NCBI GenBank assembly: GCA_021824175.1
Contig: JAKALP010000002.1
Location: 50,005 to 114,004 of the forward strand
Reading direction: 5' to 3'
Length of the DNA: 64,000 nt
DNA from: Deltaproteobacteria bacterium
GTDB lineage: Bacteria > Desulfobacterota > Desulfobacteria > Desulfobacterales > Desulfosarcinaceae
The notes below the pieces were generated by a model. The model made no database searches, had not been told where the DNA came from, and saw only the letters and a list, made by a program, of their open reading frames with translations. This document shows positions 727 through 44,891 of the stretch, in pieces (the stretch's first letter is position 1; each line of letters opens with the position of its first letter). Made by a program: the position numbers and the translations under genes.

Positions 727-866
727 AGGAGTCAGAAGCCTGAAAGTAGAATCAATGTAGTAAAACCGAAAGCCTGAAAGTATATCGATTTCCTTTCGAG
801 AATATTCCTTAACTTTACTACTTTAAACTTTTTGACTTTAAACTCTAAGCCTCAAACCTCAAACTC
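727..866. repeat. Degenerate AAAGTTTAAA-type word arrays facing each other
   Basis: The gap between the sirtuin start and the MBL gene holds a sentence of degenerate words (TCAGAAGCCTGAAAG, TGAAAGTA) at 727-785 and a T-rich complementary set (CTTTACTACTTTAAAC and similar) at 818-866 that runs into the end of the MBL gene. The same word family recurs near 22.7 kb and 25.5 kb. Confidence 0.5.
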
Positions 867-1691
867 CATCCCCGCCCCCACCGCGAAGCACTCCATCTGC
901 TGCTTGCGGCCGTTGATGATCTTGCGGCAGGCCTCCACCATCTCATCTACTTCCTGGTCGGTGCGTTCCTGGTTGAGATGGAAGAGGCCCAGGCGTTTGA
1001 CGCCGGCCTTGAAAGCCAGTTCCAGCACATCTAGGTAAGAGGAGTGGCCCCACTCGATGAGCAGCTTGTACTCCTGGGGGGTGTATTCGGCGTCATGCAT
1101 CAGCAGGTCGGCGCCTTCGCAATACTTGAGGTAATCAACGGCGGCCAGACCGCCGGGATGCACGAACCCCAACTCGTTGTCGGTCAAAAAAACAAAGGAT
1201 TTGCCGTCTTCGATGAACTTGTAGCCCTTGCCGGTGTTGGGGTGGCTGATCTGGATGGGCACCACCGTGACCGATCCGATTTGAAATTGATCCGGGTTGC
1301 CTTCGGCGTAAACAATTTTGGCTTTGAGGTCGGAGAAGCGCACCGGGAAATTGGGCGGGGCCATCACCTTGGAGAACATGCTCTCCATGAATTTTTTATG
1401 AAACGGCCCTCGGTGCAGATGAATCCTGGGGTGCTCCAGAAACAGGGGTTTGAAATAGGGAAACCCCATGAGATGGTCCCAGTGGCCGTGGGTGAGCAGG
1501 AAATTGTATTGGTAGCGGCCTTCCTTGAGCAATTGGTTGCCCAGCCGCCGGATGCCGGTGCCCGCGTCCACGATGATGATGTCATCGCTCTGGGTGCGGA
1601 TCTCCAGGCAGGTGGTGTCCCCGCCGTACTTGATATACTCCTTACCCGATACCGGTATGGAGCCCCGTGATCCCCAACAGCGTATCCGCAT
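852..1691 (-). CDS. MBL-fold metallohydrolase (RNase Z / PhnP-like)
   Basis: A 279-residue cytosolic metallo-beta-lactamase-fold protein. The metal-binding motif HGHWDH is at residues 68-73 (H68, H70, D72, H73), preceded by the VDAGTG strand-turn, and a later HDAEYT segment supplies the bridging Asp region. The N-terminus (RCWGSRGSIPV) is typical of the branch annotated as phosphoribosyl-cyclic-phosphate phosphodiesterase or RNase Z-like proteins. It lies between the sirtuin and the PrmA-like gene on the same strand, separated from the latter by a structured repeat. The substrate cannot be told from sequence. Length is normal and the frame is intact. Confidence 0.85.
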   Translation of the reverse strand: MRIRCWGSRGSIPVSGKEYIKYGGDTTCLEIRTQSDDIIIVDAGTGIRRLGNQLLKEGRYQYNFLLTHGHWDHLMGFPYFKPLFLEHPRIHLHRGPFHKKFMESMFSKVMAPPNFPVRFSDLKAKIVYAEGNPDQFQIGSVTVVPIQISHPNTGKGYKFIEDGKSFVFLTDNELGFVHPGGLAAVDYLKYCEGADLLMHDAEYTPQEYKLLIEWGHSSYLDVLELAFKAGVKRLGLFHLNQERTDQEVDEMVEACRKIINGRKQQMECFAVGAGMEFEV

Positions 1692-1706
1692 GCGATGCCT
1701 CTAAAG

Positions 1707-1904
1707 AGTGCATGAAGGAAAAGCCCCTATTTTCCCAATTTCAGCGTTGGGGCAAAATTTTAATCCTCGAAATACTACGAGTATGTCTGCGGTTAAAATT
1801 TTGCCTCCGCCTTCGACACACCTAAAAAAGTTATATTGATGTGTCGTCCCGTCTGGTCTTTGGCGGGAGAACTTGGAAAAAATATGGGCTTTTATTCATG
1901 CACT
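1707..1904 (+). repeat. Structured intergenic element, copy A (about 198 nt, multi-branched fold)
   Basis: The whole gap can fold: an outer stem AGTGCATGAA (1707-1716) with TTCATGCACT (1895-1904) continues through AAAGCCC/GGGCTTT and CCAA/TTGG. Inside are a long hairpin with arms GGCAAAATTTTAA and TTAAAATTTTGCC around a conserved loop (CCTCGAAATAC...GTATGTCTGCGG), a CGACACA/TGTGTCG hairpin, and a CCCGTC/GGCGGG hairpin. A second full copy lies inverted at 37685-37876 and a core copy at 13339-13409. No protein is encoded. Confidence 0.75.
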
Positions 1905-1908
1905 CACA

Positions 1909-2739
1909 TTAAACGCGACGACCATAAAAAGTGAACCAAGTCGCATCCCGTTCCCATTTGCGAATGATCTCGACCGGTTGCCGTCGTAACAGATCTTCGA
2001 TCTCCCGCGCCTGGCTCCTGAGCAATCCCGATAAGATGAATTGCTGATGGCGGCTAAAACCGTCTTGGGCCAGCATCGGCCGCATCACGGCATAATGTAT
2101 ATTGGATACCATAAGGTCGCTGGATATGTCTATAAAATCCATGGCATTGCCTTGTGCCGTGAGGATGCGGGACGCCAACTGGTTGTAGATGACATTGCGC
2201 CGGGCGGTCTCCACGGCCAGACGGTTGAGATCCACGGCCAGCACGCGCCTGGCCCCCAACCGCGCCGCGGCCAGGGCCAGCAAACCAGTGCCGGTACCGA
2301 GATCAAGCACCATGTCCACCGGCTCGGCCTCTAAAGCCAGTTCCAAAGCGCTCAGGCAATCGTGCGTGGTGGGATGGGTGCCGGTACCGAACACCACGCC
2401 AGGGTCAAGGAGAATGCCCATCTCATCGAGTTCCGCTGCTTCGGGGTGCCAGGGCGGCACCACCTTCAACCGGCCTACTTGCAGAGGCGTCAACCGGTCC
2501 CCCTGCCACTGCTCGTAGGTCATCTGAAATTGGTCCTGAAGCGATAGATGAGGCTGGGCGCGCAACAGCGCCTGGACGCATTCATCAGCAGGCTCTTTGA
2601 AGAAGAGAAAGGAATCGCCCTCTTCTTCCCAGTTGCCGATGAAATGGTCGTTGCCGGTGATGGGATTTCCGCTGACACGACCGTGGAGGTAGTAAATGTG
2701 AAGATCTTGATAAGGTGGCTGGTATTTCAGGCGAGGCAT
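1909..2739 (-). CDS. prmA: PrmA-like ribosomal protein L11 methyltransferase family protein
   Basis: A 276-residue SAM-dependent methyltransferase. The PrmA signature around DPGVVFGTGTHPTTHDCL is at residues 112-129 and the SAM-binding DLGTGTG motif at 146-152, followed by LAVDLN (acidic residue for ribose binding). The NIHYAVM segment near residue 215 replaces the usual NI/NPxY motif. PrmA trimethylates ribosomal protein L11. The N-terminal 100 residues diverge from enterobacterial PrmA, so a different methylation target is possible. It sits between the AcuB-like gene and the MBL gene on the same strand. Confidence 0.8.
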   Translation of the reverse strand: MPRLKYQPPYQDLHIYYLHGRVSGNPITGNDHFIGNWEEEGDSFLFFKEPADECVQALLRAQPHLSLQDQFQMTYEQWQGDRLTPLQVGRLKVVPPWHPEAAELDEMGILLDPGVVFGTGTHPTTHDCLSALELALEAEPVDMVLDLGTGTGLLALAAARLGARRVLAVDLNRLAVETARRNVIYNQLASRILTAQGNAMDFIDISSDLMVSNIHYAVMRPMLAQDGFSRHQQFILSGLLRSQAREIEDLLRRQPVEIIRKWERDATWFTFYGRRV

Positions 2740-2766: not shown

Positions 2767-2851
2767 TCGTTGATTGGTTGATGCGTTGATTCGTGCAGAG
2801 GGGTTCAAAAACTCAACCACAAATCAACGAATCAACGAATTGACCAATCAA
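2767..2851. repeat. TTGATTCG-type octamer arrays, inverted pair
   Basis: Left array (2767-2794) reads in words such as TTGATTGG and TTGATTCG; right array (2819-2851) reads in complementary words AATCAACG, CAATCAAC. The two can pair across about 25 nt. The right arm ends at the stop codon of the AcuB-like gene. The same words occur at 16.9, 28.3-28.5 and 30.8-31.0 kb. Confidence 0.75.
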
Positions 2852-5678: not shown

Positions 5679-5812
5679 GTTGGCCCGTTGGCCCGTTGGC
5701 CCGTTGGCCCGTCAAACACCTTAATTTAATCAATCAGATGTTTGATCCCGCCGTTTTTTGGCGGGGTTGCCCGTTAGTCCATTAGCCCGTTAGCCCGTTG
5801 GCCCGTGACACG
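5679..5812. repeat. GCCCGTTG octamer arrays flanking a hairpin unit that recurs at 43.8 kb
   Basis: GCCCGTTG words fill 5679-5707 and 5768-5806 in the same orientation. Between them is a unit starting GTCAAACACCTTAATTT (5708-) and ending CAGATGTTTGATCCCGCCG, which forms a hairpin (TCAAACACCT with AGATGTTTGA). The same unit lies inverted at 43835-43880, again beside GGGCCAAC words. Here it is upstream of cooC. Confidence 0.75.
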
Positions 5813-8117: not shown

Positions 8118-8440
8118 AAAGGGACCGAGGGACAAAGGGACTAAGGGACTGAGGAACTGAGGCACAAAGTTGCAAAGGCACAAAGGCACAGAGAAGTAAA
8201 GGTAGTACGATTTACTCTTTTAGGTCCATGGGCAGCTGAGGTTCTATCTTAGATGGTTTTTAGTTGCACCTTACCACGAAAAATGCTCCTCTTTTGTCCC
8301 TCAGTCCCTCAGTCCCTCAGTCCCTCAGTCCCTCAGTCCCTCAGTCCCTCAGTCCCTCAGTCCCTCAGTCCCTCAGTCCCTCAGTCCCTCAGTCCCTTTG
8401 TCCCTTAGTCCCTTTGTCCCTTAGTTCCTTTGTCTCTTTG
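8118..8440. repeat. TCCCTCAG octamer tandem array with inverted partner array
   Basis: 8297-8392 holds twelve perfect TCCCTCAG units, continued to 8440 by six variant octamers (TCCCTTTG, TCCCTTAG, TTCCTTTG). On the other side, 8118-8200 reads in reverse-complement octamers (AAAGGGAC, TAAGGGAC, TGAGGAAC, AAAGGCAC) with the same 8-bp period. It lies between the convergent 3' ends of the UbiB-like gene and thiD and could fold into a large hairpin. Confidence 0.9.
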
Positions 8441-9387: not shown

Positions 9388-9485
9388 AATATCGAATATT
9401 GAACAACAAATATCGAATTACAAAGTTTTCTTTCTGTCTATGTTCCTTCGGCATTTTACTGTTCCTTGTTCGATATTCGATATTC
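9388..9485. repeat. AATATCGAAT-type inverted repeat
   Basis: The arm starting GAATATCGAATATTG (9388-9407) faces TTGTTCGATATTCG... (9466-9485), complementary over 20 bp with one mismatch. The gap 9302-9534 between thiD and the HD gene otherwise shows nothing coding. Confidence 0.7.
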
Positions 9486-13251: not shown

Positions 13252-13338
13252 GGGCTATGCTCCTGTTTGGATGAGGTGATTTAAAAACGTCCCCTCCCCG
13301 CTAAAGATCAGCGGGATCTGCGACGGGCTTTCCAATAT

Positions 13339-13409
13339 CGGCGTTGGGGCGAGGTGTCCAATCCTCGAAATACTCCGTGTATGTCTGCGGTTGGCCACCT
13401 CACCCCGCC
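13339..13409 (+). repeat. Structured intergenic element, core copy C
   Basis: Shares the GCGTTGGGG entry (13341-) and the loop words CCTCGAAATAC and GTATGTCTGCGG with copies A and B, but its stem is different: GAGGTG pairs with CACCTC instead of CAAAATTTT with AAAATTTTG. A CCCGCT/AGCGGG hairpin lies 5' of it (13298-13316) and GGGCT/AGCCC can close the core. It is in the long 5' leader of nrdJ, in antisense orientation. Confidence 0.7.
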
Positions 13410-13599
13410 TTGATCTTGAGCCCGATTGAACATTTTGAATTCACCTCAGGGTTAGAATTGGTAAATGCTGCCGCCGGCGAAAATCATTCCCTGCGGCGAA
13501 AAAGGTCTTGAGGAATGCCGGTCGGTCAGTTGCTGGATGACCTGATTCACGCCGTTAAGGGAGCGGTGGAGAGATCCGAAAGTATTGATGCTGTTTTTG

Positions 13600-13737: not shown

Positions 13738-15078
<1,341 letters not shown>

Positions 15079-15108
15079 ACCCAGGTCATATTTCGAATTG
15101 GTTTCACG

Positions 15109-15140
15109 CGAAGGCGCGAAGACGCGAAGAGAGAGACCCT
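15109..15140. repeat. GCGAAGAC octamer array
   Basis: Three to four octamers (GCGAAGGC, GCGAAGAC, GCGAAGAG) in tandem after tgt. No inverted partner is seen in this gap. Confidence 0.6.
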
Positions 15141-15256
15141 CATGGGCTGGTTTTTCATTTGTCAAAGCGTCCGATTATGGCTATTTTGCCATCGTGAACC
15201 CGGACGATGTTTTATCTGGACCATGACACCATGAAATTTGAAGGGAAACAACACCC

Positions 15257-15481
15257 ATGAAAGAAAAAGTCGAAGCAGCCATCAATAAAATCCGTCCCAT
15301 GCTCCAGGCCGACGGCGGCAATGTGGAGCTGGTCAGCATCAGCCACGAGGGCGTGGTTCAGGTGCGCCTGAAGGGGGCCTGCTCGGGCTGCCCCATGTCG
15401 CAGATGACGTTGAAAAACGGCATCGAACGCATCATCAAAAAAGAGGTGCCGGAAGTAAAGAGCGTGGAAGCGGTAAAATAG
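15257..15481 (+). CDS. Nfu-type iron-sulfur scaffold (NifU C-terminal domain protein)
   Basis: 74 residues forming a single NifU C-terminal domain. IRPMLQADGGNVELV opens the domain and the cluster-ligating CxxC is in GACSGCPMSQMTL. Such proteins carry and deliver [4Fe-4S] clusters in the cytosol. It stands alone, separate from the full NifU at 42.4 kb whose last domain it resembles. The frame is intact and an AAGGGAA stretch precedes the ATG. Confidence 0.92.
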   Translation: MKEKVEAAINKIRPMLQADGGNVELVSISHEGVVQVRLKGACSGCPMSQMTLKNGIERIIKKEVPEVKSVEAVK

Positions 15482-15487
15482 AAAACC

Positions 15488-15690
15488 GTTAGCCCGTTGC
15501 CCGTTTGCCCGTTAGCCCGTAGGTCGTGAACGGTTTGGGAACTGACAAGGAACTAAAACCGAAGGCCCATAAAAAATATTGACTTGGGCAGGTTCGCAGA
15601 CTCGTTCGCAAGCTTCATCTTGCCCCCATGAAGGCAAGGTCATCGAGGAGCCGACACACGGGCCAACGGGCAACGGGCAAACGGGATAAC
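15488..15690. repeat. GCCCGTTG-type octamer arrays, inverted pair
   Basis: GCCCGTTGCCCGTTTGCCCG-type words at 15488-15525 face CGGGCCAACGGGCAACGGGC-type words at 15658-15690. The spacer contains TTGACT (15582-15587) as a possible -35 and a TTGCC/GGCAA hairpin. The right arm ends 20 bp before the aminotransferase start. Confidence 0.8.
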
Positions 15691-15711
15691 GAATAACACA
15701 AAGGTACCTCC

Positions 15712-16899
15712 ATGGCCGTAGCCCAAAAGATCAGCGCCATAATGAGCCAGGCCTCCTGGATTCGAAAAATGTTTGAAGAGGGCGCCCGGCTCAAGGCCCG
15801 GCATGGCGCTGATAAGGTGTTTGATTTCAGTCTGGGAAATCCCAATGTGGCGCCGCCGGAAAAGTTTCACGAAACCCTGCGGGACGCGGTGAGCAGTTGC
15901 GGTCTGGGCGACCACTGTTACATGCCCCAGACCGGTTTTCCCCAGGTGTGCGATGCCGTGGCCGCCTACCTCTCCCAGGAACAGGGGGTGACGGCCGAGT
16001 GTGGCGACATTGTCATGACCTGCGGCGCGGCCGGAGCCCTCAATGTGATCTTCAAGGCCCTGCTCGATCCCGGCGATGAAGTGATCGTGCCCACGCCCTG
16101 TTTCGTGGAGTACCGTTTTTATGTGGACAACCACGGCGGCGTGATCCGCATGGTGCCCACCCGCGGGGATTTCAGCCTGGACCTGAAAGCCGTCGAAGCC
16201 GCCATCAATCCCAAGACCAAGGCGGTTCTGATCAACTCGCCCAACAACCCCACCGGCCAGATCTATTCGGCCGAGAGCCTCAAGCAGCTCGGCACCCTGC
16301 TGTCGGCCAAAAGTCGGGAAGGGGAAGTAAATCGGATTATCTACCTCATCTCCGACGAGCCCTATCGCAAAATTGTGTTTGATGGACATCAGGTGCCCAG
16401 CATCTTCCAGGCGTATAACGACAGCCTGATCGCCACCTCCTACTCCAAAGACCTCTCCATACCCGGCGAGCGCATTGGTTTTGCGGCCGTCAATCCGGCC
16501 GCTGCCTTCAAAATGGATATCCGCGCCGGTCTCACCCTGGCCAACCGCATCCTGGGGTTCGTCAATGCCCCGGCCTTGATGCAGCGGGTCATCGCCTGCC
16601 TGCAGGGCGCCAGCGTGGATATGAACGAATACAAACGCAAACGGGATCTGCTGTGCGACGGCCTGGCCCAAGCCGGCTATGAATTTGTGCGGCCGCCGGG
16701 AGCCTTTTATCTCTTCCCTAAAACCCCCATCGCCGACGATGTGGCATTTGTGCGCGAACTCCAGCAGGAGCTAATCCTCACCGTTCCCGGCTCGGGTTTC
16801 GCCGGCCCCGGCCACTTCCGCATTGCCTTCTGCGTGGAGGACCGGACCATCATCAATGCTTTGCCGGGGTTTGGGCGGGTCATGGCGAAGTATCGTTGA
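15712..16899 (+). CDS. PLP-dependent class I/II aminotransferase
   Basis: 395 residues, fold type I. The substrate/PLP loop GLGDHCYMPQTGFPQV lies near residue 65, NSPNNPTGQIYS gives the PLP-binding Asn, SDEPYRK the Asp/Tyr pair, and SYSKDLSIPGERIGF the Schiff-base Lys. The C-terminal FRIAFCVE supplies the carboxylate-binding Arg. Similar to aspartate/branched-chain type aminotransferases found in anaerobes; the exact amino acid is not decidable. Followed by the methylmalonyl-CoA epimerase across an octamer hairpin, which may be positional only. Confidence 0.88.
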   Translation: MAVAQKISAIMSQASWIRKMFEEGARLKARHGADKVFDFSLGNPNVAPPEKFHETLRDAVSSCGLGDHCYMPQTGFPQVCDAVAAYLSQEQGVTAECGDIVMTCGAAGALNVIFKALLDPGDEVIVPTPCFVEYRFYVDNHGGVIRMVPTRGDFSLDLKAVEAAINPKTKAVLINSPNNPTGQIYSAESLKQLGTLLSAKSREGEVNRIIYLISDEPYRKIVFDGHQVPSIFQAYNDSLIATSYSKDLSIPGERIGFAAVNPAAAFKMDIRAGLTLANRILGFVNAPALMQRVIACLQGASVDMNEYKRKRDLLCDGLAQAGYEFVRPPGAFYLFPKTPIADDVAFVRELQQELILTVPGSGFAGPGHFRIAFCVEDRTIINALPGFGRVMAKYR

Positions 16900-16986
16900 T
16901 TCGTTGATTAGTTGATTGGTTGATTCGTTTATTGGGAAGCAGTTGTGGCTTAAATACCAATCAACAAATCAACCAATCAACCAACC
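16893..16986. repeat. TTGATTCG octamer arrays, inverted pair
   Basis: Left array 16893-16935 (TTGATTCG, TTGATTAG, TTGATTGG words) overlaps the aminotransferase stop codon; right array 16957-16986 (AATCAACA, AATCAACC words) ends just before the epimerase ribosome site. Confidence 0.85.
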
Positions 16987-16999
16987 CGAAAGGAGTCCT

Positions 17000-17404
17000 A
17001 TGAAAATCCTAAAAATCGACCACCTCGGTATCGCCGTCAACAGCATCGATCAGGCCAAGTCCTTCTGGAGCACTGTTCTGGGGCTGCATTTCGAAGGCAG
17101 TGAAACCGTGGCGGAGCAGAAGGTGACCACGGCCTTTTTCCCGGTGGGCGAAAGCGAGGTGGAGCTGCTGGAATCCACGGCCCCCGACGGCCCGGTGGCC
17201 AAGTTCATCGAAAAAAAGGGCGAGGGCATTCAACACATCGCGTTCCGCGTGGCGAACATCGAGGAGGCCCTGGCTGAGCTCAAAGCCAAAGGTGTGCGCC
17301 TCATCGATGAAAAACCGCGCATCGGCGCGGGCGGCGCCAAAATCGCCTTCCTGCACCCCAAGGAGACCGGCGGCGTGCTGGTGGAGTTGTGCCAGCGGGA
17401 TTGA
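17000..17404 (+). CDS. mce: Methylmalonyl-CoA epimerase
   Basis: 134 residues from the ATG at 17000 (ribosome site AAAGGAG). It interconverts the R and S forms of methylmalonyl-CoA, joining the carboxyltransferase to the B12 mutase. Vicinal-oxygen-chelate fold: DHLGIAV with metal-ligand His near residue 7, then HIAFRV and a GVLVELCQ ending with the Glu ligand. It is the first pathway gene in the window; the others continue at 20.4 kb beyond an opposite-strand glycosyltransferase pair. Confidence 0.95.
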
Positions 17405-17427
17405 TTCTGGCTGCCCCTATTTTGAAA

Positions 17428-19617: not shown

Positions 19618-19618
19618 G

Positions 19619-20113
19619 TTAACTCCTGCTGCTCTTGAGGCTTAGCAACCACCGTGCTGCTTTGGGATTGTTGCGGATAGAAGCAAACGAAAAAAGCCAC
19701 TCAGCCAATTTCCAAAAATGGGTCGGCCAAGGCAACGTGGCCAGCCTGTCCGGTCGCCAACGGCGGCGCACAATGGGGTTGACCCTACGTCCTTCCGCTG
19801 AATATCGTAGAAGACAGATCACTTCCAATCGGCTTCGCTTCTTGCGTTCCAGGGCCGAATGATGATCCGCCAAAGATTGGGCATCGGCCCTTTTTTTAAG
19901 GACCAAGATATAGATCTGATCGACGAAAAACTCCGCACAATTCAATAACTGCCAGAGATGGTACTCAAGGACATCGCACCCGATCGACTGGTAATAGGCA
20001 TCAATCTTCTCGATTCGATCCAAAATCGGATTTGAGTGATTGCCTGGCGCCGGCGCCGTGGGGCGTAGGGTTTCATTGTGCCAAAGCTGCGCGAAGTCAT
20101 TTTCGGACATCAT
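19619..20113 (-). CDS. DUF4214-containing protein
   Basis: 164 residues. Residues about 62-110 (FVDQIYILVLKKRADAQS through RLEVICLLRYSAEGRR) match the DUF4214 pattern of FVxxLYxxLLxRxADxxG...SRxEVxxxxxxSxEG, often found fused or adjacent to glycosyltransferases. The C-terminus is basic and aromatic. GGGAG precedes the start; the stop is one base before the GTG of the glycosyltransferase. A role in assembling or anchoring the glycosylation machinery is inference. Confidence 0.65.
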   Translation of the reverse strand: MMSENDFAQLWHNETLRPTAPAPGNHSNPILDRIEKIDAYYQSIGCDVLEYHLWQLLNCAEFFVDQIYILVLKKRADAQSLADHHSALERKKRSRLEVICLLRYSAEGRRVNPIVRRRWRPDRLATLPWPTHFWKLAEWLFSFASIRNNPKAARWLLSLKSSRS

Positions 20114-25403: not shown

Positions 25404-25404
25404 A

Positions 25405-25533
25405 ATAGTTTAAAGTTTTAAGTGTAAAGTTTTAAGATGGAGGAATGTTATCTTGATTTTCACGGAGACCGGGTCCGAACTTACAAATGACAGAATTCCT
25501 TAACTTTAGACTTTACACTTTAGACTTAAAACT
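25405..25533. repeat. GTTTAAAGTTTTAAGT-type arrays, inverted pair
   Basis: 25405-25438 (GTTTAAAG, TTTTAAGT, GTAAAGTT words) faces 25497-25533 (AACTTTAG, ACTTTACAC, TTTAGACTT words) directly after the carboxyltransferase stop. Confidence 0.75.
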
Positions 25534-25598
25534 CAGCCTTGCAGAAAAGACCGGCGCCACCATCTCCCGAAATGGGCCGGTCCAACAGGAGCAAAGCA

Positions 25599-25874: not shown

Positions 25875-25913
25875 CTGTACGTTTAACGCCTTATCAGGAG
25901 GAGACGCAAGAAG

Positions 25914-28214: not shown

Positions 28215-28276
28215 CGGCAGTGAAAACAAGAAATCAAAAGCATGGGGGTTGCTTTTAAGGGACCTCCGTGCTTTTT

Positions 28277-28565
28277 TGTTGATTGGTTGATTCGTTGATT
28301 CGTTGATTCGTTGATTGGGGGGCATTGGGTGTGGGTCACGACTGTTGCATGAAGCATGCGGTCTCTCCCTTATCGTACTCGTACTCGTACGCGTACTCGT
28401 ACTCGAATGGTTTTAAAGGTTTTTCGAGTTCACGTACGACCGGCGCGAAAGTCCATATCATGCAACACTGCTCGGGGGCTTCTACCAGTTGACATGCAGT
28501 ACAATTTGAAAAAGGTAGAATTCCGTCCACGAATAAACCAATCCACGAATCAACCAATCAACAAA
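28277..28565. repeat. Nested word arrays between 5S-type gene and sucC
   Basis: Outer pair: TTGATTCG octamers at 28277-28318 and AATCAACC words at 28529-28565. Inside is a TACTCG/TACGCG hexamer array (28372-28407) with a weak partner at 28425-28437. The 368-bp gap holds no gene; the sucC ribosome site GGAAGGAT follows. Confidence 0.8.
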
Positions 28566-28582
28566 AAGGGAAGGATCTTCAA

Positions 28583-29746
28583 ATGAACATTCATGAGTAT
28601 CAAGCCAAGCAGTTATTTCAACGCTTTGGGGTGCCCATCCCCAAAGGCGCGGTGGCCTTTTCACCCGAAGAGGCGCGCCAGGTGGCGCAGACCCTGGGCG
28701 GTTTTCCGGTGGTGGTCAAGGCCCAGATCCATGCCGGCGGGCGCGGCAAGGGCGGCGGTGTGAAACTGGCCCGCTCCCTGGAAGAAGCCGAACAACTGGC
28801 CCGGCAGATCATCGGCATGACCCTGGTGACCCACCAGACCGGCCCCAAGGGGCGCCTGGTAAAGAAAGTGCTGGTGGAGCAGGGCCTCAACATCGCCAAG
28901 GAGCTCTACCTGAGCATTGTGGTGGATCGTTCCAGCGCCAACATCGTGATCATGGCCAGCGAAGCCGGCGGCATGGACATCGAGGCCGTGGCCGAGCAGA
29001 CACCGGAAAAGATCATCAAGGTCTACATCAATCCCCTCATCGGCATTCAGGCCTATCATTGCCAGCAAGCCGCCTACGGCCTCAATCTGCCGCCGGCGGC
29101 CGTCAAACCCTTTGTGCAGATGCTCAACAATCTCTACAAACTCTTCATGGCCTACGATGCCTCCCTGGTGGAGATCAACCCCCTGGTGCTCACGGCCGAA
29201 GAGACCATCCTGGCCTTGGATGCCAAAATCAATTTCGACGACAATGCCCTTTTCCGTCATCAGGATCTCATGGACTTTAGGGATCTGGATGAAGAGGACC
29301 CCCTGGACATTGAAGCCGGCAAGTACCATCTGAACTACATCAACCTGGACGGCAACGTGGGCAACATGGTCAATGGCGCTGGCCTGGCCATGGCCACCAT
29401 GGACATTATTCAGCAAGCCGGCGCGCGGCCCGCCAATTTCCTGGATGTGGGCGGCGGCGCCAATGCCGAAATGGTGGAAAACGGCTTTCGCATCATCAGC
29501 AGCGATCCCAATGTCAAAGGCATCCTGATCAATATCTTCGGCGGCATATTGCGCTGCGACGTGCTGGCCGAAGGCGTGGTCAAGGCGGCCCAGAAGACCG
29601 GCATCAAAGTGCCGGTGGTGGTGCGCATGGAAGGCACCAACGTGGAGGCGGGCCGCAAAATTTTGAAGGATTCAGGATTGAATCTGATTGCCGCCAAGGA
29701 TTTGAAGGATGCGGCGGGGAAGGTGGCGGAGATTGTGGGGAGTTAG
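28583..29746 (+). CDS. sucC: Succinyl-CoA synthetase (ADP-forming) beta subunit
   Basis: 387 residues with an N-terminal ATP-grasp domain ([36 protein letters not shown]) and a C-terminal flavodoxin-like ligase domain ([27 protein letters not shown]). With SucD it makes ATP and succinate from succinyl-CoA, or the reverse. Here it is the final step next to the methylmalonyl-CoA mutase. Length is that of E. coli SucC. Confidence 0.96.
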
Positions 29747-29770
29747 CACATAGAACGATCGCCATCTTGA

Positions 29771-29850
29771 TCGTACGCGTACTCGTACTCGTACGCGTAC
29801 TCGGAAACTTATTTGGTCGAGTACGAGTACGAGTACGCGTACGAGTACGA
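29771..29850. repeat. TCGTAC hexamer arrays, inverted pair between sucC and sucD
   Basis: TCGTACGCGTACTCGTACTC-type left array (29771-29803) and GAGTACGAGTACGAGTACGC-type right array (29818-29850) form long complementary arms with a 14-nt loop. The right arm ends 19 bp before the sucD start, upstream of a CGGAG ribosome site. Confidence 0.9.
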
Positions 29851-29868
29851 AACTCACGGAGCTACAAC

Positions 29869-30750
29869 ATGAGTATATTCGTCAATAAAAATACCAAAGT
29901 CATTGTCCAGGGCATCACCGGCAAAGAGGGCCAGTTCCATGCCCGTCAATGCGTGGCCTATGGCACCCAGGTAGTGGGCGGCGTGACGCCCGGCAAGGGC
30001 GGTCAGAAGATGGACGAGATCCCGGTGTTCAACAGCGTGGCCGATGCCCGCCGGATCACGGGCGCCGACTGCAGCCTGATCTTCGTGCCGCCGGCCTTTG
30101 CCGCCGCGGCCATTCTGGAGGCCATCGACGCCGGCATCGAGATGATCGTGGCCATCACCGAAGGCATTCCGGTGCTGGACATGATGAAAGTCAAAAACTA
30201 CCTGCGGGGCAAGTCTTCGCGCCTGATCGGTCCCAACTGCCCCGGCATCATCACGCCGGGCCAGTGTAAAGTGGGCATCATGCCCGCCCCGATCCATAAA
30301 CCGGGCGGCCCCATCGGCGTGGTCTCGCGCTCCGGGACCTTAACGTACGAAGTGGTGCATCAGCTCACCGGCCAGGGCATTGGCCAGACCACCTGCATCG
30401 GCATCGGCGGCGATCCGGTCAACGGCACCAACTTCATCGACTGCCTGGAAGCATTCAACAACGACCCTGAAACCAAGGGCATCGTCATGGTGGGCGAAAT
30501 CGGCGGCAATGCCGAAGAAGATGCGGCCGCCTTTATCAAGGCCAAGGTGCGCAAGCCAGTGGTGGGCTTCATCGCCGGTCTGACCGCGCCGCCGGGCCGC
30601 CGCATGGGCCATGCCGGCGCCATCATCAGCGGCAAGAGCGGTACGGCCCAGGGAAAGATTGCCGCCATGGAAGCGGCCGGGATCAGGATCTGTAAGGGCC
30701 TGGGGTCGCTGGGAGAGTTGTGTCGGGAAGTGTTTAAGGGGTTGTATTAG
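29869..30750 (+). CDS. sucD: Succinyl-CoA synthetase alpha subunit
   Basis: 293 residues from the ATG at 29869; the longer in-frame reading is repeat DNA. CoA-binding Rossmann start [36 protein letters not shown], and the phosphorylated His in a [11 protein letters not shown] segment. Forms the catalytic pair with SucC. It completes the pathway from propionyl-CoA to succinate in this cluster. Confidence 0.96.
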
Positions 30751-30754
30751 TAAA

Positions 30755-30985
30755 ATCGTTGATTTGTTGATTCGTTGATTCGGTCAAACCGCAAAATCGA
30801 TGGACGGCCGCATCCAAATCAGCAACGGTGTTATCAGTGCCATCCGTGTTATCCGTGGTCAATTGTTCCCACGGATAGCGCGGGCGAAGCTTATAAATTT
30901 AGCCCCGAAAATAAGAAATTCGACAGTGTAGCGCAGCGCGCTGCACCTAACGAATCAACGAATCAACCAATAACGAATCGACGAC
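30755..30985. repeat. Octamer and 9-mer word arrays between sucD and hypA
   Basis: TTGATTCG words (30755-30783) face AATCAACG words (30949-30985). Between them TATCCGTGG/CCACGGATA (30850-30877) gives an ATCCGTG-type hairpin, and GCGCAGCGCGCTGC a short palindrome (30931-30944). The right array abuts the hypA ATG and replaces any recognisable ribosome site. Confidence 0.8.
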
Positions 30986-30989
30986 AATC

Positions 30990-31355
30990 ATGCACGAAAT
31001 GGGCATTGCCACCGAAATCCTCAAGATCGTCCAGGACTCCATTCCGGCCGAAATGGCTGGCGCGCGCGTGCGGCGGGTCAATCTGAGGGTCGGCAAACTC
31101 TCCGCGATAGTCACCGAAAGCTTGCGCTTTTGCTTCACCATCGTGGCGGAGAAAACGCCGGTGGCCGGCGCGGAGTTGGCCGTGGAAGAAGTGGCGGTCA
31201 AGGCCAAGTGCGGTGCCTGCGGCCAGGAATTTACTATAGAAAGCGCGGTATTTCTTTGCCCGGCGTGCAACAGCGGCAATATTCAAATGCTTTCAGGTCG
31301 CGAATTGGACATTGTCTCCATCGAAGTGGAAGAAGAAAGTAAAGACCCTAATTGA
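30990..31355 (+). CDS. hypA: Hydrogenase nickel-insertion protein HypA
   Basis: 121 residues starting MHEMGIA, where the N-terminal Met-His-Glu binds nickel. The zinc site is CGACGQEF and CPACNSG. HypA works with HypB to deliver nickel to [NiFe]-hydrogenase. No structural hydrogenase gene is in the window. It is followed by hypB across a perfect hairpin. No Shine-Dalgarno is visible because a word array occupies the position. Confidence 0.95.
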   Translation: MHEMGIATEILKIVQDSIPAEMAGARVRRVNLRVGKLSAIVTESLRFCFTIVAEKTPVAGAELAVEEVAVKAKCGACGQEFTIESAVFLCPACNSGNIQMLSGRELDIVSIEVEEESKDPN

Positions 31356-31378
31356 AGTAAAAATTAGCTCATCAGTGA

Positions 31379-31435
31379 TATCCGTGTGATCCGTGGTCAA
31401 TATTTTACCACGGATCACACGAATTACACGGATAG
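31379..31435. repeat. ATCCGTG-type hairpin with one extra 9-mer in one arm
   Basis: TATCCGTGTGATCCGTGGT (31379-31397) pairs with ACCACGGATCACAC (31407-31420); the right side then carries an additional GAATTACAC unit before CGGATA. Loop is CAATATTTT, similar to the 13.75-kb hairpin. Confidence 0.85.
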
Positions 31436-31461
31436 GTTAGACAGTGAAAAGGACGGCCACC

Positions 31462-32253
31462 ATGCTGACCAAAGACAAAACCCTGATCTACCGCCACCAC
31501 AAAGAGGGCCACGGCCCCCATGATCATTCACACCCCCACCCGCACCACGACACTCCCATGGAAACCCAGCGCACGGGCGGCCGGGAGATCAAGGTGGTGC
31601 GCCGCGTGCTGGACGCCAACGATATGATGGCCGCCAAAAACAGGGAACTTTTCGCTGCCAAGAATATCTTCGTGCTCAACGTGATGAGCTCGCCCGGCTC
31701 GGGCAAGACTACTCTTTTGCAGCGAACCCTGGCCCACCTGATGCCGACGCTGCGCTGCGCCGTGATCGTGGGCGACATCTGCACCACCATCGACGCCGAC
31801 CGCCTGGCGGCCTCGGGCGCGCCCGTGGTGCAGATCAACACCGACGCTTTCGGCGGCGATTGCCACCTGGCGGCCCATGTGATCGAGCGCGCCCTGGCCG
31901 GCATTGATCTGGATCAGGTCGATCTCCTGATCGTGGAGAACATCGGCAACCTGGTCTGCCCGGCCGAGTTTGACATTGGCGAAGACAAAAGAGTAGTGGT
32001 GCTTTCAGTGACCGAAGGCGAAGACAAACCCGCCAAATATCCCCTCATGTTCCGCGAATGCGACGCCATGCTGCTCAACAAAATCGACCTGCTGCCCTAC
32101 CTGGAGTACGACGTGGCCAAGACATTGCAAAGCGTGGCCCAACTGCATCCCGGCATGCCGGTCTACCAGATCTCGGCTAAGAGCGGCCAAGGTTTCGAAG
32201 CGTGGCTGGATTGGCTCAAGGAGCAGGTGGCCGCCAAAAAACACGCGCATTAA
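31462..32253 (+). CDS. hypB: Hydrogenase/urease nickel-incorporation GTPase HypB
   Basis: 263 residues from the ATG at 31462 (AAAGGACGG upstream); a GTG 18 bp earlier is less likely. The N-terminus is His-rich (HHKEGHGPHDHSHPHPHH), a nickel-storage stretch. G-domain motifs: SSPGSGKTT (P-loop), VVGDICTTIDADR, ENIGNLVCPAEFDIGE with the metal Cys, and NKIDLLPY. It hydrolyses GTP to release nickel to the hydrogenase via HypA. Confidence 0.96.
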   Translation: MLTKDKTLIYRHHKEGHGPHDHSHPHPHHDTPMETQRTGGREIKVVRRVLDANDMMAAKNRELFAAKNIFVLNVMSSPGSGKTTLLQRTLAHLMPTLRCAVIVGDICTTIDADRLAASGAPVVQINTDAFGGDCHLAAHVIERALAGIDLDQVDLLIVENIGNLVCPAEFDIGEDKRVVVLSVTEGEDKPAKYPLMFRECDAMLLNKIDLLPYLEYDVAKTLQSVAQLHPGMPVYQISAKSGQGFEAWLDWLKEQVAAKKHAH

Positions 32254-34233: not shown

Positions 34234-34308
34234 GTCGTACTCGTACGCGTACTTGAGTTGTCTAAATAGCTTTTCGAGTACGAGTACGCGTACGAGTACG
34301 AGTACGAT
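34234..34308. repeat. TCGTAC hexamer arrays, inverted pair between divergent genes
   Basis: TCGTACTCGTACGCGTAC (34234-34252) faces GAGTACGAGTACGCGTACGA-type words (34276-34308). It lies in the divergent promoter gap between the YcaO and chemoreceptor genes. Confidence 0.85.
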
Positions 34309-37645: not shown

Positions 37646-37684
37646 TTCTTTTCCAGGGTGCGTCTTTCAGTTGGCATATCTATA

Positions 37685-37876
37685 GCGTGAGCGAAAAGCC
37701 CATATTTTTCCAAGTTCTCCCGCCAAAGACCAGACGGGACGACACATCGATATAACTTTTTTAGGTGTGTCGAAGGCGGAGGCAAAATTTTAACCGCAGA
37801 CATACACGTAGTATTTCGAGGATTAAAATTTTGCCCCAACGCGGAAATTGGGGAAATAGGGGGTTTTCGTTCACGC
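37685..37876 (-). repeat. Structured intergenic element, copy B (about 192 nt)
   Basis: Nearly the same as copy A (1707-1904) in reverse orientation. Loop and inner stems are conserved; in the outer stem copy A GCATG/CATGC is GCGTG/CACGC here, a compensatory A-T to G-C change. It lies between the LolA-like and barrel genes, so it is in sense orientation with their transcript, unlike A and C. Confidence 0.8.
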
Positions 37877-37886
37877 GCTTTTGAAC

Positions 37887-41235: not shown

Positions 41236-42420
41236 TCAGCTTGCGATCTGGCAAGCCTTGTCTTTTTGCCCCCAGAAAGGCGACATTTTGCGCAGGCGCT
41301 CGATGATGGGCGGCAGTTTTTCGATCACCAGATCGATTTCCGCCTCGGTGTTGTAGACGCTCAGGCTGAAGCGGATGGAGCCGTGGGCCGCGGTAAAGGG
41401 CACGTCCATGGCGCGCAGCACGTGGGAAGGCTCCAGCGATCCGGAAGTACAGGCCGAACCGGAAGAGGCGCAGACCCTGAACTCATCGAGCATGAGCAGG
41501 ATCGATTCGCCTTCCACGAATTCAAAGGCAATGCTGGTGGTGTTGGGCAGGCGGTTGAGGCGGTCGCCGTTGACCATGGTGTTGGGAATGCGCTCCACCA
41601 GCGCGTTCTCCAGCCGGTCGCGCAGCGCTTTGACGCGTGTGTTTTCTTCTCTCATCTGGGCCGCGGCCAATTCAGCGGCTTTGCCCAGCCCAACAATGGC
41701 GGCCACGTTCTCCGTGCCGCCGCGGCGACCGCGCTCCTGGTGGCCGCCCAGCAGAAAAGGCGCGAACTTGGTGCCTTTGCGGATGTAGAGCGCGCCGATG
41801 CCCTTGGGCGCATGCAGTTTGTGGCCGGAGAGGGAGAGCAGATCGATCTGGTTTTCCGCCATGTTGATGGGCACTTTGCCCACGGCCTGCACAGCATCGG
41901 TGTGGAATACGGCCCCGCGTTTGTGCACCTGGGCGGCGATCTCTTCCACCGGGAAGATCACGCCGGTTTCGTTGTTGGCCCACATGAGGCTGACAATGGC
42001 GGTGTCATCGCTTAAATGGGCGTAGAGATAGTTCAGGTCCAGCCGCCCTTTTTTGTCCACCGGTACAAAGGTGATGCGGTAGCCGTTGCGCCCCAAATAC
42101 TCCACCAGGTTCTTCACCGCCGGATGTTCCACCTTGGAAGTAATCACATGTCTCTTTTCCGGGTAGGAGCGCAGGGTGGCGTAAATGGCGGTGCTGTCGC
42201 TTTCCGTGCCGCAGGAAGTAAAGATGATCTCGTCGGGTTGGGCCCCCAGCAGATCAGCCAGCTTGGCGCGGGCCTCCTTGATCTTCTTGCCCACGTTGCC
42301 GCCGAAGGAGTGCATGCTGGAAGGATTACCGTAATAGGTGGAGAAGTACGGCAGCATCTCTTCCACTACCTCGGGGGCCACCTGGGTGGTGGCATTGTTG
42401 TCCAGATAGACTGGCTTCAT
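41236..42420 (-). CDS. nifS: Cysteine desulfurase (NifS/IscS family)
   Basis: 394 residues from the ATG at 42420, which overlaps the nifU stop (ATGA), so translation is coupled. MKPVYLDNNATTQVAP opens the PLP fold, SLSGHKLHAPKGIGALY holds the Schiff-base Lys, and the mobile-loop Cys is in ASSGSACTSG. It takes sulfur from cysteine for Fe-S assembly on NifU. Length fits the NifS subclass. Confidence 0.96.
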   Translation of the reverse strand: MKPVYLDNNATTQVAPEVVEEMLPYFSTYYGNPSSMHSFGGNVGKKIKEARAKLADLLGAQPDEIIFTSCGTESDSTAIYATLRSYPEKRHVITSKVEHPAVKNLVEYLGRNGYRITFVPVDKKGRLDLNYLYAHLSDDTAIVSLMWANNETGVIFPVEEIAAQVHKRGAVFHTDAVQAVGKVPINMAENQIDLLSLSGHKLHAPKGIGALYIRKGTKFAPFLLGGHQERGRRGGTENVAAIVGLGKAAELAAAQMREENTRVKALRDRLENALVERIPNTMVNGDRLNRLPNTTSIAFEFVEGESILLMLDEFRVCASSGSACTSGSLEPSHVLRAMDVPFTAAHGSIRFSLSVYNTEAEIDLVIEKLPPIIERLRKMSPFWGQKDKACQIAS

Positions 42421-43247
42421 GAGGCCACCTCCTCTACGATGATCTCTTTGGCCACCAACTCTTTGAGTTTGCTCTCCACATAGTCTTTCAGGGTGATTTC
42501 CGACATGGCGCACGAGGCGCAACGGCCTTTGAGTTTGACCATGACGCGGTTGCCGTCCACGTCCACCAGCTGGATATCGCCGCCGTCCTGCATCAGGGCC
42601 GGCTTGATTTCGCGCTCCAGGGTCTCTTCGATGAGCTTGATCTTCTGGATATTGGTCAAGGGCTTGGGTTGGGGCGGCTTGTCGGTGAGCGAGCCGTTGA
42701 CGCGGTCGATGATCTGCTGGATGGCGTCATGGCATTTGCCGCAGCCGCCGCCGGCTTTGATGTAATTGGTGATGTCTTCAATGGTCTTCAAGCGGTTGTC
42801 GGCCACGGCGCGTTCAATCTGAATATCGGTGACGCCGAAACATTCGCACACCAGATTGCCTTCCTTGACCTTGTCCGCCTCGCCGCGGTAGCAGGCAATG
42901 GCTTTTTCCAGGGCCTCGTGGCCCATGACCGAGCAGTGCATCTTTTCCTTGGGCAGGCCGCCCAGGTACTCGGCAATGTGGTCGTTGGTGATTTTTTCAG
43001 CCTCTTCAATGGTCTTGCCCACGAGCAGTTCCGTAAGGGCTGAGGCCGAGGCAATGGCGCTGGCGCAACCAAAGGTTTTGAATTTGGCGTCAACGATGCG
43101 TCCGTCGCCGCCCACCTTGAAGGTGAGCTTCAAGGCGTCGCCGCAGGCCATGGAGCCCACCTCGCCCACGCCGTCGGCATTTTCAACCTCACCCACGTTG
43201 CGCGGGTTGAGGAAGTGTTCTTTGACTTTGTCTGTATATTCCCACAT
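42417..43247 (-). CDS. nifU: Three-domain Fe-S scaffold NifU
   Basis: 276 residues from the ATG at 43247 after GGGGAGGGC. An IscU-type domain with its three Cys (ACGDAL, FGCASAIA, HCSVMG), a BFD-like [2Fe-2S] domain with CECFGV and CGKCHD, and a C-terminal Nfu domain with CASCAMSEITL. It builds clusters with NifS sulfur. Despite the name, no nitrogenase genes are present; in many anaerobes this is the general Fe-S system. Confidence 0.95.
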   Translation of the reverse strand: MWEYTDKVKEHFLNPRNVGEVENADGVGEVGSMACGDALKLTFKVGGDGRIVDAKFKTFGCASAIASASALTELLVGKTIEEAEKITNDHIAEYLGGLPKEKMHCSVMGHEALEKAIACYRGEADKVKEGNLVCECFGVTDIQIERAVADNRLKTIEDITNYIKAGGGCGKCHDAIQQIIDRVNGSLTDKPPQPKPLTNIQKIKLIEETLEREIKPALMQDGGDIQLVDVDGNRVMVKLKGRCASCAMSEITLKDYVESKLKELVAKEIIVEEVAS

Positions 43248-43345
43248 GGTGTGCCCTCCCCGAGGAGTGTCAGTTGCAATCCGGCTGGATTGATCAGTTC
43301 TCAATCACGTAACGGCCATAATAAGCACGATTTTCCGGATGCAAA

Positions 43346-43937
43346 GTGTCTGTTGGCCGTTGCCCGTTGGCCCGTTGCCCGTTGAGCCCGTGTGCCCGTT
43401 GGCCCGTTGAGCCCGTTGAGCCCGTGGCCCGTTGGCTCGTTGGCCCGTTGAGCCCGTTGAGCCCGTGGTCCGTTGAGCCCGTGTGCCCGTTGAGCCCGTT
43501 GAGCCCGTTGGCCCGTTTGCTCGTTTGGCCCGTTGGTCCGTGGGCGCGTGAGACCATGGCCTTATGGGAAAAGCATTTGGTATTTGACTTCGTCTTATGA
43601 TGAAGCCATATTTTGATTATTAATTGCCCGCCTTGTTCAGCTCCGCCTTCCGCCGTTGATGCGCCCCTTCGCTGGATAATAAAAACCAACCCGCGGGCAA
43701 ATAACCACCAACGGGCTCAACGGGCTCAACGGGCCAACGGGCCAACGGGCCACGGACAAACGGGCAACCCCGCTAAAGCCCCCGCTAAAAGGCAGCGGGA
43801 CCCCACATCCGATTAACAATTAAAAGGGGTGGGGACGGCGGGATCAAACATCTGATAGATGAAATTAAGGTGTTTGACGGGCCAACGGGCCAACGGGCCA
43901 CGGGCAAACGGGCCAACGGGCCACGGGCCAACGGACA
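43346..43937. repeat. Large GCCCGTTG/GGGCCAAC word arrays with the 5.7-kb shared unit
   Basis: About 200 bp (43346-43545) of GCCCGTTG, GAGCCCGTT, GCCCGTGT words; complementary CAACGGGCT and GGGCCAAC words at 43708-43765; and a third block (43877-43937) just before the MEMO ribosome site. The unit 43835-43880 (GATCAAACATCTGATAG to GGTGTTTGACGGG) is the inverted counterpart of 5708-5755. The 710-bp gap between nifU and the MEMO gene shows no gene. Confidence 0.85.
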
Positions 43938-43957
43938 ACAAAAAAGGAGGTACCCCC

Positions 43958-44812
43958 ATGGAACTCCGCAAAGCAGTATTTGCCGGTAGCTGGTATCCGG
44001 ACCGGGCCGAAGCCTGCGACCAGGAGATCGAGACCTATCTCTCCTCGGAAGCGGATCTGCCGGCAAGCCATCCCCAATGGGTGGCCGGCATCGTACCTCA
44101 TGCAGGCTGGTATTACAGCGGCCGCATTGCATGTCAGGTGATTCACCAATTGAAGGGCGCGGAACCCATCGATCTGGTGGTGGTGTTCGGCATGCACTTG
44201 CACCCAGGTTCGCCCAACTACATGATGACCCAGGGCGCCTGGGAAACTCCCTATGGCGAACTGCCCGTGGCTGAGCCGCTGGCCCAGGCGCTGTTGGAAC
44301 GATTTGCCTTTCAAGTGGAGACCCCGCGGCGATTCAACCGCGATAACACCGTGGAGTTGCAGCTGCCCTTTATCAAGCGGCTGCTCGATCCGGCGGCGAT
44401 TCTGGCCATCGGCGTGCCGCCCACGGCGCGATCCTTGGAGATCGGACGGGCCGTGGCCGACTGGGCCAAGGCAAACAAGCAGCGGCTGCGTATCGTCGGT
44501 TCCACGGACCTGACCCATTATGGTGAAAATTACGGCTTTTCACCCCATGGCCGCGCTGCCAAGGCCGTGGCCTGGGTGCGCGATGAAAATGACCGCCGGG
44601 TCATCGACGCCATGCTGGCCATGGCGCCCGAACAGGTGCTCGAAGAGGGTTTGAGCCAGCAAAATGCCTGTTGCAGCGGCGCGGCCGCCACGGCCATTGC
44701 GGCCGCCAAACAGCTCGGCGCCACCCAGGCCAAAACCATTGCCTATGCGACCAGCTATGACAAAAGTCCGGGGGATAGTTTCGTGGGGTATGCGGGGGTG
44801 GTGTTTGGATAA
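43958..44812 (+). CDS. MEMO-family protein (AmmeMemoRadiSam system protein B-like)
   Basis: 284 residues from the ATG at 43958 (AAAGGAGG). MELRKAVFAGSWYP and PHAGWYYSGRIA open the dioxygenase-like fold, VVVFGMHLHPG carries metal-type His residues, and STDLTHYGENYGF is the family signature. Relatives occur with AMMECR1 and radical SAM proteins, which are not adjacent here. Biochemical role of bacterial MEMO proteins is unsettled; metal-dependent redox chemistry is suspected. Confidence 0.88.
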   Translation: MELRKAVFAGSWYPDRAEACDQEIETYLSSEADLPASHPQWVAGIVPHAGWYYSGRIACQVIHQLKGAEPIDLVVVFGMHLHPGSPNYMMTQGAWETPYGELPVAEPLAQALLERFAFQVETPRRFNRDNTVELQLPFIKRLLDPAAILAIGVPPTARSLEIGRAVADWAKANKQRLRIVGSTDLTHYGENYGFSPHGRAAKAVAWVRDENDRRVIDAMLAMAPEQVLEEGLSQQNACCSGAAATAIAAAKQLGATQAKTIAYATSYDKSPGDSFVGYAGVVFG

Positions 44813-44867
44813 CGCCAGCGATACCTTCGGCTTTTTCGGATAGGCTCAAAACGTTCGTCCTTCCTCT

Positions 44868-44891
44868 ATCGTACTCGGACTCGTACTCGAA
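44868..44891. repeat. Short TCGTACTCGGACTCGTACTC hexamer array
   Basis: Four TACTCG-type units after the MEMO gene, no inverted partner. The rest of the gap to 45015 shows nothing coding. Confidence 0.65.

Follow-up and report, generated by a model that had tools for sequence, protein, structure and literature searches.

Intergenic tandem-word arrays of a Desulfatitalea-type genome as probable inverted ends of small hairpin-forming mobile elements

The window studied here is a stretch of 64,000 nucleotides (G000:C14:50005-114004) from the 6.07-Mb, 61-contig genome assembly of a Desulfatitalea-type bacterium. Between its protein genes, among them genes for NifU-domain, aminotransferase, succinyl-CoA-ligase-type, HypA, CobW/HypB-type and Memo proteins, lie arrays of short degenerate words, many of which face an array of the reverse complement. 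These arrays probably form the inverted ends of small mobile elements that fold into hairpins. The window copies carry no gene and resemble miniature inverted-repeat transposable elements (MITEs). Their gene-bearing relatives would carry one of two genes between the arms: an IVP gene, encoding the four-helix bundle of 23S rRNA intervening sequences (IVS; PF05635), or a GxxExxY gene (PF13366), encoding a PD-(D/E)XK protein.

Word arrays in the source genome

The analysis covered 1.33 Mb of the source genome, window included, plus parts of related genomes. Arrays, counted as at least two tandem words, occupy 137 of the 753 gaps of at least 40 bp, and 18 of the 45 in the window. A sequence-only reading of the window had claimed that word families fill intergenic gaps and recur at distant loci, and had proposed scoring the gaps against shuffled controls. 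Both claims hold, the words lying where they had been placed, and the scoring was carried out as a lag test on 310 intergenic gaps (78.5 kb of gap in 530 kb of genome). This test returned 88 arrays with periods of 5-12 in 57 gaps, compared to none in dinucleotide-shuffled gaps (five shuffles each). Period 8 accounts for 50 and period 6 for 21 of the 88 arrays. A coding control of 450 kb gave 19 arrays, with periods 6, 7, 9 and 12. The longer arrays are also detected by Tandem Repeats Finder, and perfect runs exist, for example of 12 TCCCTCAG units. Units abut directly, with no unique spacers between them, in agreement with the earlier exclusion of CRISPR. Foldability was likewise borne out, as five window hairpins each fold better than all 200 shuffles (z -4.6 to -7.7). 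The window gave no match, and no rRNA, in an Rfam search at gathering thresholds. The word arrays are a real feature of this genome. The words listed earlier are present, but two of them, TAAAGTTT and GCGAAGAC, are weak, with one tandem left arm each in the window by the word patterns used.

Polarity and similarity of the arms

Word families were defined on the 530 kb: A (AAGGGACT), B (GTTGATTC), C (GCCCGTTG), D (AAGTTTTA), E (CGAGTA), F (ATCCGTG), G (CGCGAAG) and H (AATATCGAA); family I (GGAGTCAG) was excluded for want of a training pair. Facing arms with at least two words each occur in 63 of 138 family-gaps A-H, just under half, so that by this strict rule the earlier statement that most gaps carry them was too broad. 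In all 63 facing pairs over the 1.33 Mb the arm order is constant per family, one arm type always being 5', a fixed polarity that the earlier reading had overlooked. Furthermore, on 800 kb held out from the family definition the order is kept in 29 of 29 pairs (A 6, B 4, C 1, D 2, E 6, F 8, H 2). Of the 69 gaps of families A-F with only one arm, 35 have a weak partner scoring above 20 shuffles on the expected side, and two have one on the wrong side. The idea that single arms are the ends of large cassettes was rejected, as reading by eye gave no consistent multi-gene layout.

Fixed polarity would also follow if a reverse transcriptase added repeats, in telomerase-like fashion, to the two ends of a break, and DRT10 is described, in the part of its report at hand, as making tandem-repeat DNA (PMC12632851). 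Against this stand the genome's single RVT_1 match, which is a fragment resembling a group II intron and lies at the end of a contig (the intron label is by reading), and the more than eight words, which would require as many templates; we find this route barely credible.

Two arms belonging to the same element mostly resemble each other no more than arms taken from different elements do. No excess of within-element likeness was seen in families A (n=12, p 0.97), B (n=10, p 0.89), D (n=3, p 1.0), E (n=12, p 0.90) and H (n=3, p 0.67), and there is a weak lean toward it in F (n=14, p 0.04) and C (n=6, p 0.07). Correction by template switching (quasipalindrome homogenization), earlier invoked to explain how arms stay matched, is thus not needed, and it lacks support in the five families in which the likeness test fails (p 0.67-1.0).

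Between the arms, six of the 12 family A spacers share one core of about 100 bp, and a seventh matches only through leftover array words. Two family A elements (G000:C14:171515-171943 and G000:C10:178715-178983) contain GTAGGGTGCG-type palindromic repeats. At G000:C10:92005 an array is chimeric, family B words passing into family C words within one arm.

Genes between the arms

Whole-genome searches of the source genome found three IVP and three GxxExxY genes. That genes of these two kinds lie between arms of this type, in this genome as well as in other phyla, had also escaped the earlier reading. Five of the six lie clearly between arms or hairpins: L274 between family A arms (z 18.1), L275 between family C arms (z 14.9), L276 between family D arms (z 9.5), L273 between family F hairpins (z 9.2) and L272 between family G arms (z 4.4). 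The sixth, L271, is more weakly bounded by a further word, GCGCAGAG (z 3.2). The neighbors of L274 are napD- and napA-like genes, as read by eye with no profile search. Three long spacers contain open reading frames (ORFs): an IVP ORF between C arms, a GxxExxY ORF between G arms and an HNH-like ORF between C arms. The last of these, at G000:C47:55218, is SRA-HNH-like (labeled by reading, with no profile search) and possibly represents a third gene type in these elements. No transposase-like ORF was noticed when the ORFs of the long spacers were read by eye, which agrees with the earlier exclusion of insertion sequences.

The genome does have seven Y1_Tnp genes, as would be expected if the arrays were repetitive extragenic palindromic (REP) sequences, or REPINs, moved by Y1 transposases of the REP-associated (RAYT) type. 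None of the seven loci is bounded by word arms within the up to 1.5 kb fetched per side; one (L205) has a lone heptamer array nearby, another (L203) a short period-9 array, and the Y1 gene L204 has other inverted ends. In addition, the arms are tandem words and not a single palindrome of 20-40 bp. An origin of this kind is very improbable, and the earlier exclusion of REP stands. The inverted ends of L204 (G000:C10:86868) are its own (GGGGACGCCCTTAACTT), and the gene lies beside a PIN/AbrB-like pair (labels by reading).

Among 198 genomes of the phylum, the source genome included, PF05635 occurs in 110 and PF13366 in 72. Phylum loci were taken from the best matches (29 new IVP and 30 new GxxExxY) and from 40 stretches of multi-copy genomes. 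A first test with 30 shuffles, omitting loci with cut flanks, found facing arms at 26 of 28 IVP and 21 of 24 GxxExxY genes. For the full test, genes were found with a purpose-built profile. The sequence preceding each gene was then aligned with the reverse-complemented sequence following it, and the result was set against 50 shuffles; the duplicated loci L332, L336 and L341 were removed, and the six genes of the source genome were included. Facing arms beat all 50 shuffles at 43 of 51 IVP genes (35 with z of at least 5) and at 35 of 55 GxxExxY genes (27 with z of at least 5). The corresponding figures for control genes are one of 150 small genes of the source genome, two of 43 Memo genes and five of 99 other ORFs of the same loci. 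Among arms with a clear lag, the period is mostly 7 for IVP (17 of 21) and 8-10 for GxxExxY genes (10 of 10); no lag above 55% was present in 22 IVP and 25 GxxExxY cases. The putative PD-(D/E)XK triad D, E, K is kept in 56, 56 and 58 of 58 GxxExxY ORFs, duplicates included, and arm similarity tracks protein similarity in this group (Mantel rho 0.33, 0 of 999 permutations).

IVP matches were found in 20 plasmid records, of which 15 have cyanobacterial names. The sample tested comprised 11 of these 15, none of the five other IVP records and five of seven GxxExxY records. Facing arms were found at 10 of the 11 cyanobacterial IVP genes, and consist mostly of words (GGGAGTA, AGGGTGT, AAAAGCT, CAGGAGT) like those of the short tandemly repeated repetitive (STRR) sequences of cyanobacteria. 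Of the plasmid GxxExxY genes, two of five pass the test, one narrowly. A further one of these genes lies between fabD and fabG, with its right arm inside the annotated ORF end, beyond the tested part.

Empty sites

Cyanobacterial plasmids also provide filled and empty versions of the same site. A Nostoc plasmid (L376) carries a 506-bp IVP insert where L392 and L393, with flanks 94 and 93% identical, have two touching ORFs instead. A second Nostoc plasmid (L396) has a 417-bp IVP insert, with flanks 96% identical to L392, that is absent from L392-L394. In the Nostoc plasmid L377, about 494 bp with an IVP gene lie between nrdB and nrdA; Calothrix L399, with flanks 85% identical, is without the insert. 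Furthermore, in L397 the IVP copy of L396 (whole stretch 94% identical, 1963 bases aligned) is interrupted by a 182-bp gene-less hairpin of the same words. Movement of gene-less word hairpins is most directly indicated by this insert.

These sites bear on the view that arrays arise in situ, in which slippage grows them at gene borders, template switching mirrors an arm, and IVP or GxxExxY genes land later on the hairpins as targets, not as cargo between ends. Perfect runs such as the TCCCTCAG array suggest slippage, the arms do lie at gene borders, and arms of families F and C are slightly more alike within elements. In addition, a gene-less element of the same words lies within an IVP copy, and elements nest. 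However, the compared empty sites carry no array by eye, arms of families A, B, D, E and H are not more alike within elements, and a single polarity per family (63 of 63) is not predicted. An origin in situ is therefore regarded as unlikely.

Gap position and comparison with relatives

Most of window positions 13939-32253, plus the genes at 41236-44812, are syntenic with two genomes of the same genus (G006 and G002), and orthologous gap lengths were derived from protein matches, stop codons included. The gap with the family E hairpin between the succinyl-CoA-ligase-type genes measures 122 bp here versus about 48 bp in both relatives. The family C gap between the NifU-domain and aminotransferase genes measures 230 bp versus about 57 (G006) and 74 bp (G002), and the one before Memo 710 bp versus about 181 and 226 bp. 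The family F gap between hypA and the CobW/HypB-type gene measures 106 bp versus about 1 bp in G006, where the genes are about adjacent, and about 37 bp in G002. By eye, nothing corresponding to the B, C, E and F hairpins was seen in the ten orthologous gaps of these two genomes. At the same place before the Memo start, there are C arms in the source genome, B-like arms in G004 and a C-like array in G009 (by eye). The elements look like insertions. The comparison of orthologous gaps proposed earlier thus gave several gaps that are longer here, but two B gaps and one D gap that are not cleanly so, and these are weighed below.

Arms of families A-D start near stop codons (median distance 6.5-15 bp), which those of E and F do not. 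The earlier observation that the right arm often ends just before a start codon applies to family B, of which 16 of 21 arms end 13-28 bp upstream, but not to E and F. The residual gaps at A, C, D, E and F pairs are not significantly different from gaps free of arrays, while those at B pairs are (p 0.03); only part of the border effect thus goes beyond insertion into short operon gaps.

Stable folds, and arms close after stop codons and before start codons, would suit intercistronic RNA structures selected by the host for mRNA stability, attenuation or termination, and transcript stability or coupling has been proposed for STRR in the available part of that account (PMC2670836). Against such host regulatory hairpins, no counterpart was seen by eye for B, C, E and F in the ten orthologous gaps, the D gap being excepted. 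The orientation classes of array gaps and other gaps do not differ significantly (chi-square p 0.12), and the B pattern occurs in only two of 345 genomes of the phylum, the source genome being one. Selection for a host function is quite improbable as the source of the arrays.

The patchy distribution extends further. The lag test gave no arrays in 82 gaps of 160 kb of G006 and seven, of period 7 and 6, in 97 gaps of G002. Ten arrays were found in 120 kb of D. alkaliphila (G003), six in 100 kb of G039, a single-contig genome of another family, one in G029 and none in G023 and G012 (60 kb each). Period 7 is that of family D and occurs also in G002, G003 and G039, while most window families have periods of 8, 6 or 9. 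The structure type is shared while the words differ across genomes, which makes an assembly artefact of one draft unlikely. The E arm (one mismatch allowed) is present in seven of 11 genomes of the genus, including the source, and in none of 18 others of the family; among these 29 genomes the B pattern is confined to the source genome and G005.

Elements of the window

The elements located in the window are collected in Table 1.

Table 1. Word-array elements of the window (positions count from the first nucleotide of the window)
Feature	Positions	Arms	Context
Family B element (GTTGATTC words)	2768..2837	2768-2791, 2822-2837	
Family C, two left-type arms	5683..5799	5683-5705, 5769-5799; right arm not found	
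Family A element (AAGGGACT/AAAGGCAC words)	8127..8422	Left 8127-8191, right 8294-8422	Core of about 100 bp common to other A elements
Family H hairpin (AATATCGAA words)	9388..9484		
Family F compact hairpin (ATCCGTG words, GTCAATTTTTTAC loop)	13740..13802		
Family E right arm	13853..13878	Left arm truncated	
Family G arm (CGCGAAG words)	15107..15129	Single	
Family C element (GCCCGTTG words)	15492..15678		Between NifU-domain gene and aminotransferase gene
Family B hairpin	16894..16982	Upstream stop codon inside left arm	Fills aminotransferase/glyoxalase-family gap
Family D (AAGTTTTAAG, period 7)	25411..25530	Left 25411-25431; right partner about 25500-25530 by eye	
Family B arms	28277..28563	28277-28316, 28548-28563	Nested family E hairpin inside, left arm 28374-28405
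Family E compact hairpin (CGAGTA hexamers)	29778..29849		Between two succinyl-CoA-ligase-type genes
Family B arms	30757..30968		Enclose nested family F hairpin; upstream of hypA
Family F hairpin	31380..31433		Between hypA and CobW/HypB-type gene
Family E hairpin	34235..34306	Right 34275-34306; shortened left arm from 34235 by eye	
Family C element(s)	43362..43921	Left 43362-43458, 43485-43534; right 43710-43765, 43884-43921	Upstream of Memo gene
Family E left arm	44870..44889		

At 28330-28520 the nested E hairpin lies within a larger repeat with TGTTGCATGA / TCATGCAACA ends, which itself lies within the B arms, giving three levels of nesting; other E copies have outer flanks similar to those of this repeat. 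Near-identical inverted elements of about 200 bp (TCTCCCGCCAAAGACCAGACGGGACGAC ... CCTCGAAATACT..TGTCTGCGG) occur at 1692-1908 and 37646-37886, with a variant near 13330-13430. Their inner arms seem, by eye, to vary in compensating pairs.

Origin of the arrays

Taken together, these results favor, with a probability of roughly 70%, a mobile-element reading, in which the arrays form the inverted ends of small elements that fold into hairpins, the window copies being gene-less, MITE-like relatives of elements with an IVP or GxxExxY gene. Four observations made directly on the DNA carry it: the fixed polarity, the link between arms and genes relative to controls, the three empty IVP sites and the gene-less copy inside an IVP gene. 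The element ends would consist of degenerate tandem words of 6-9 bp, with an IVP four-helix-bundle gene or a GxxExxY PD-(D/E)XK gene between the arms of gene-bearing members. Such an element would enter an intergenic gap as one unit, consisting of an arm, a spacer and the complementary arm, and would often land between the stop codon and the ribosome-binding site of two operon genes. After arrival, the arms would lengthen, shorten and drift unit by unit. We infer that gene-less window copies move by the same route as gene-bearing ones; the IVP or GxxExxY protein may move the elements in cis or in trans, and what is recognized would be the folded hairpin and not the word itself.

Several findings weigh against this reading. 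The arm test was failed by eight of 51 IVP genes, 20 of 55 GxxExxY genes and three of the five plasmid GxxExxY genes, and the arm words of IVP genes do not track protein similarity (Mantel rho -0.02, p 0.59). In the source genome, the B, E and H arms enclose no IVP or GxxExxY gene, so that these families are linked to the gene-bearing elements by architecture only. Among 29 paired A-D/H elements with spacers of at least 60 bp, the sole IVP match is the gene-bearing one, and the 28 others contain no IVP or GxxExxY remnant. Spacers of at least 40 bp are without a match elsewhere in the 1.33 Mb in four of eight B, four of six C and three of three D cases. In addition, compact F hairpins run from ATCCGTG to CACGGAT, while GxxExxY elements with related words run reversed. 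As to the gaps, the B gap at 16900, with 100 bp here, is hardly longer than that of G006 (about 95 bp) and shorter than that of G002 (328 bp). The gap with B and F words at 30751 is 239 bp here and about 1 bp in G002, but about 244 bp in G006, where no such arms are seen by eye, and the D gap at 25404 contains D-like words in both relatives. Finally, the empty sites belong to cyanobacterial elements and not to those of the window, and neither the three filled/empty pairs nor the one gene-less insert has a clear target-site duplication by eye.

Comparison with known systems

The 23S rRNA IVS is like the present elements in having hairpin-forming ends around an ORF for the IVP four-helix bundle, and the part of its account at hand describes it as sporadic, with horizontal spread suggested and function and origin called unclear (PMC4990558). 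Complementary, stem-forming ends are found here as well, whereas an IVP ORF between them is present in three gene-bearing elements of this genome and absent from the other 28 of 29 elements tested and from the GxxExxY elements. Furthermore, IVSs lie inside rRNA genes and are excised by RNase III, while the window copies lie between protein genes; the elements here have tandem-word ends, occur in many copies and are mostly gene-less. Because of their location outside rRNA genes they do not belong to the IVS.

MITEs are short, dispersed, hairpin-forming and intergenic. As in these, terminal inverted repeats surround a non-coding interior here. Words of families A, C, D and G are also found at both sides of IVP or GxxExxY genes of the same genome, which makes the gene-bearing copies candidate autonomous partners. 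The elements cannot be assigned to the MITEs because no clear target-site duplication was found at the cyanobacterial filled/empty pairs and the gene-less insert. REPINs are likewise short, dispersed, hairpin-forming and intergenic in the part of their description available (PMC3116915). The present elements differ from both in that their arms are word arrays of variable length and that Y1 genes are not linked to them.

Literature searches by topic and word string found no named family for the window words, as the sequence-only reading had stated, but that reading missed printed relatives such as the cyanobacterial STRR and the Xanthomonas GGGAATC repeats. STRR are tandem 7-mers in intergenic gaps, capable of forming hairpins and of a function not known according to the available part of their account (PMC2670836), and such arms flank most of the tested cyanobacterial plasmid IVP genes. 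The window words differ in being mostly 8, 6 and 9 bp long, with period 7 in family D. The same part of that account mentions neither IVP genes nor mobility (PMC2670836). The Xanthomonas GGGAATC and Nostoc GGGGA(C/T)T repeats also form intergenic heptamer arrays, the former in 70 and 75 convergent pairs with one array per strand; unlike for the present elements, the authors, in the portion at hand, generally saw no link to mobile elements (PMC4692102). The Xanthomonas protein XCC0516 (2gsc) is a relative of IVP. The TAACTGA repeats of Beggiatoaceae are mostly intergenic heptamer arrays that often end just before start codons, but nearly all are direct, with a single inverted repeat reported in the excerpt available (PMC4679880).

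GxxExxY is little covered in the open-licence papers searched, among which no work was found that joins STRR-like repeats with IVP or GxxExxY. The one architecture and the empty sites lead to a single testable question, namely, does the IVP or the GxxExxY protein move the hairpin? If it does, genes with the annotation 'four helix bundle' or 'GxxExxY' would in many cases be the cargo or the engines of mobile DNA inserting between neighboring genes, such as nrdB/nrdA, cas6/cas4 and fabD/fabG. A wider proposal, which we advance tentatively and with the odds somewhat against it, is that IVP and GxxExxY genes mobilize a class of bacterial DNA elements not described before, which would move in the form of folded hairpins, with ends read by shape and hence built from any tandem word. 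STRR, the Xanthomonas GGGAATC pairs, the 23S rRNA IVS and the window arrays would then be one phenomenon. The intergenic tandem repeats of cyanobacteria, xanthomonads and sulfur bacteria, for which the accounts, as far as available, give no settled function or origin (PMC2670836, PMC4692102, PMC4679880), are long-unexplained bacterial repeats that would thereby gain a testable origin.

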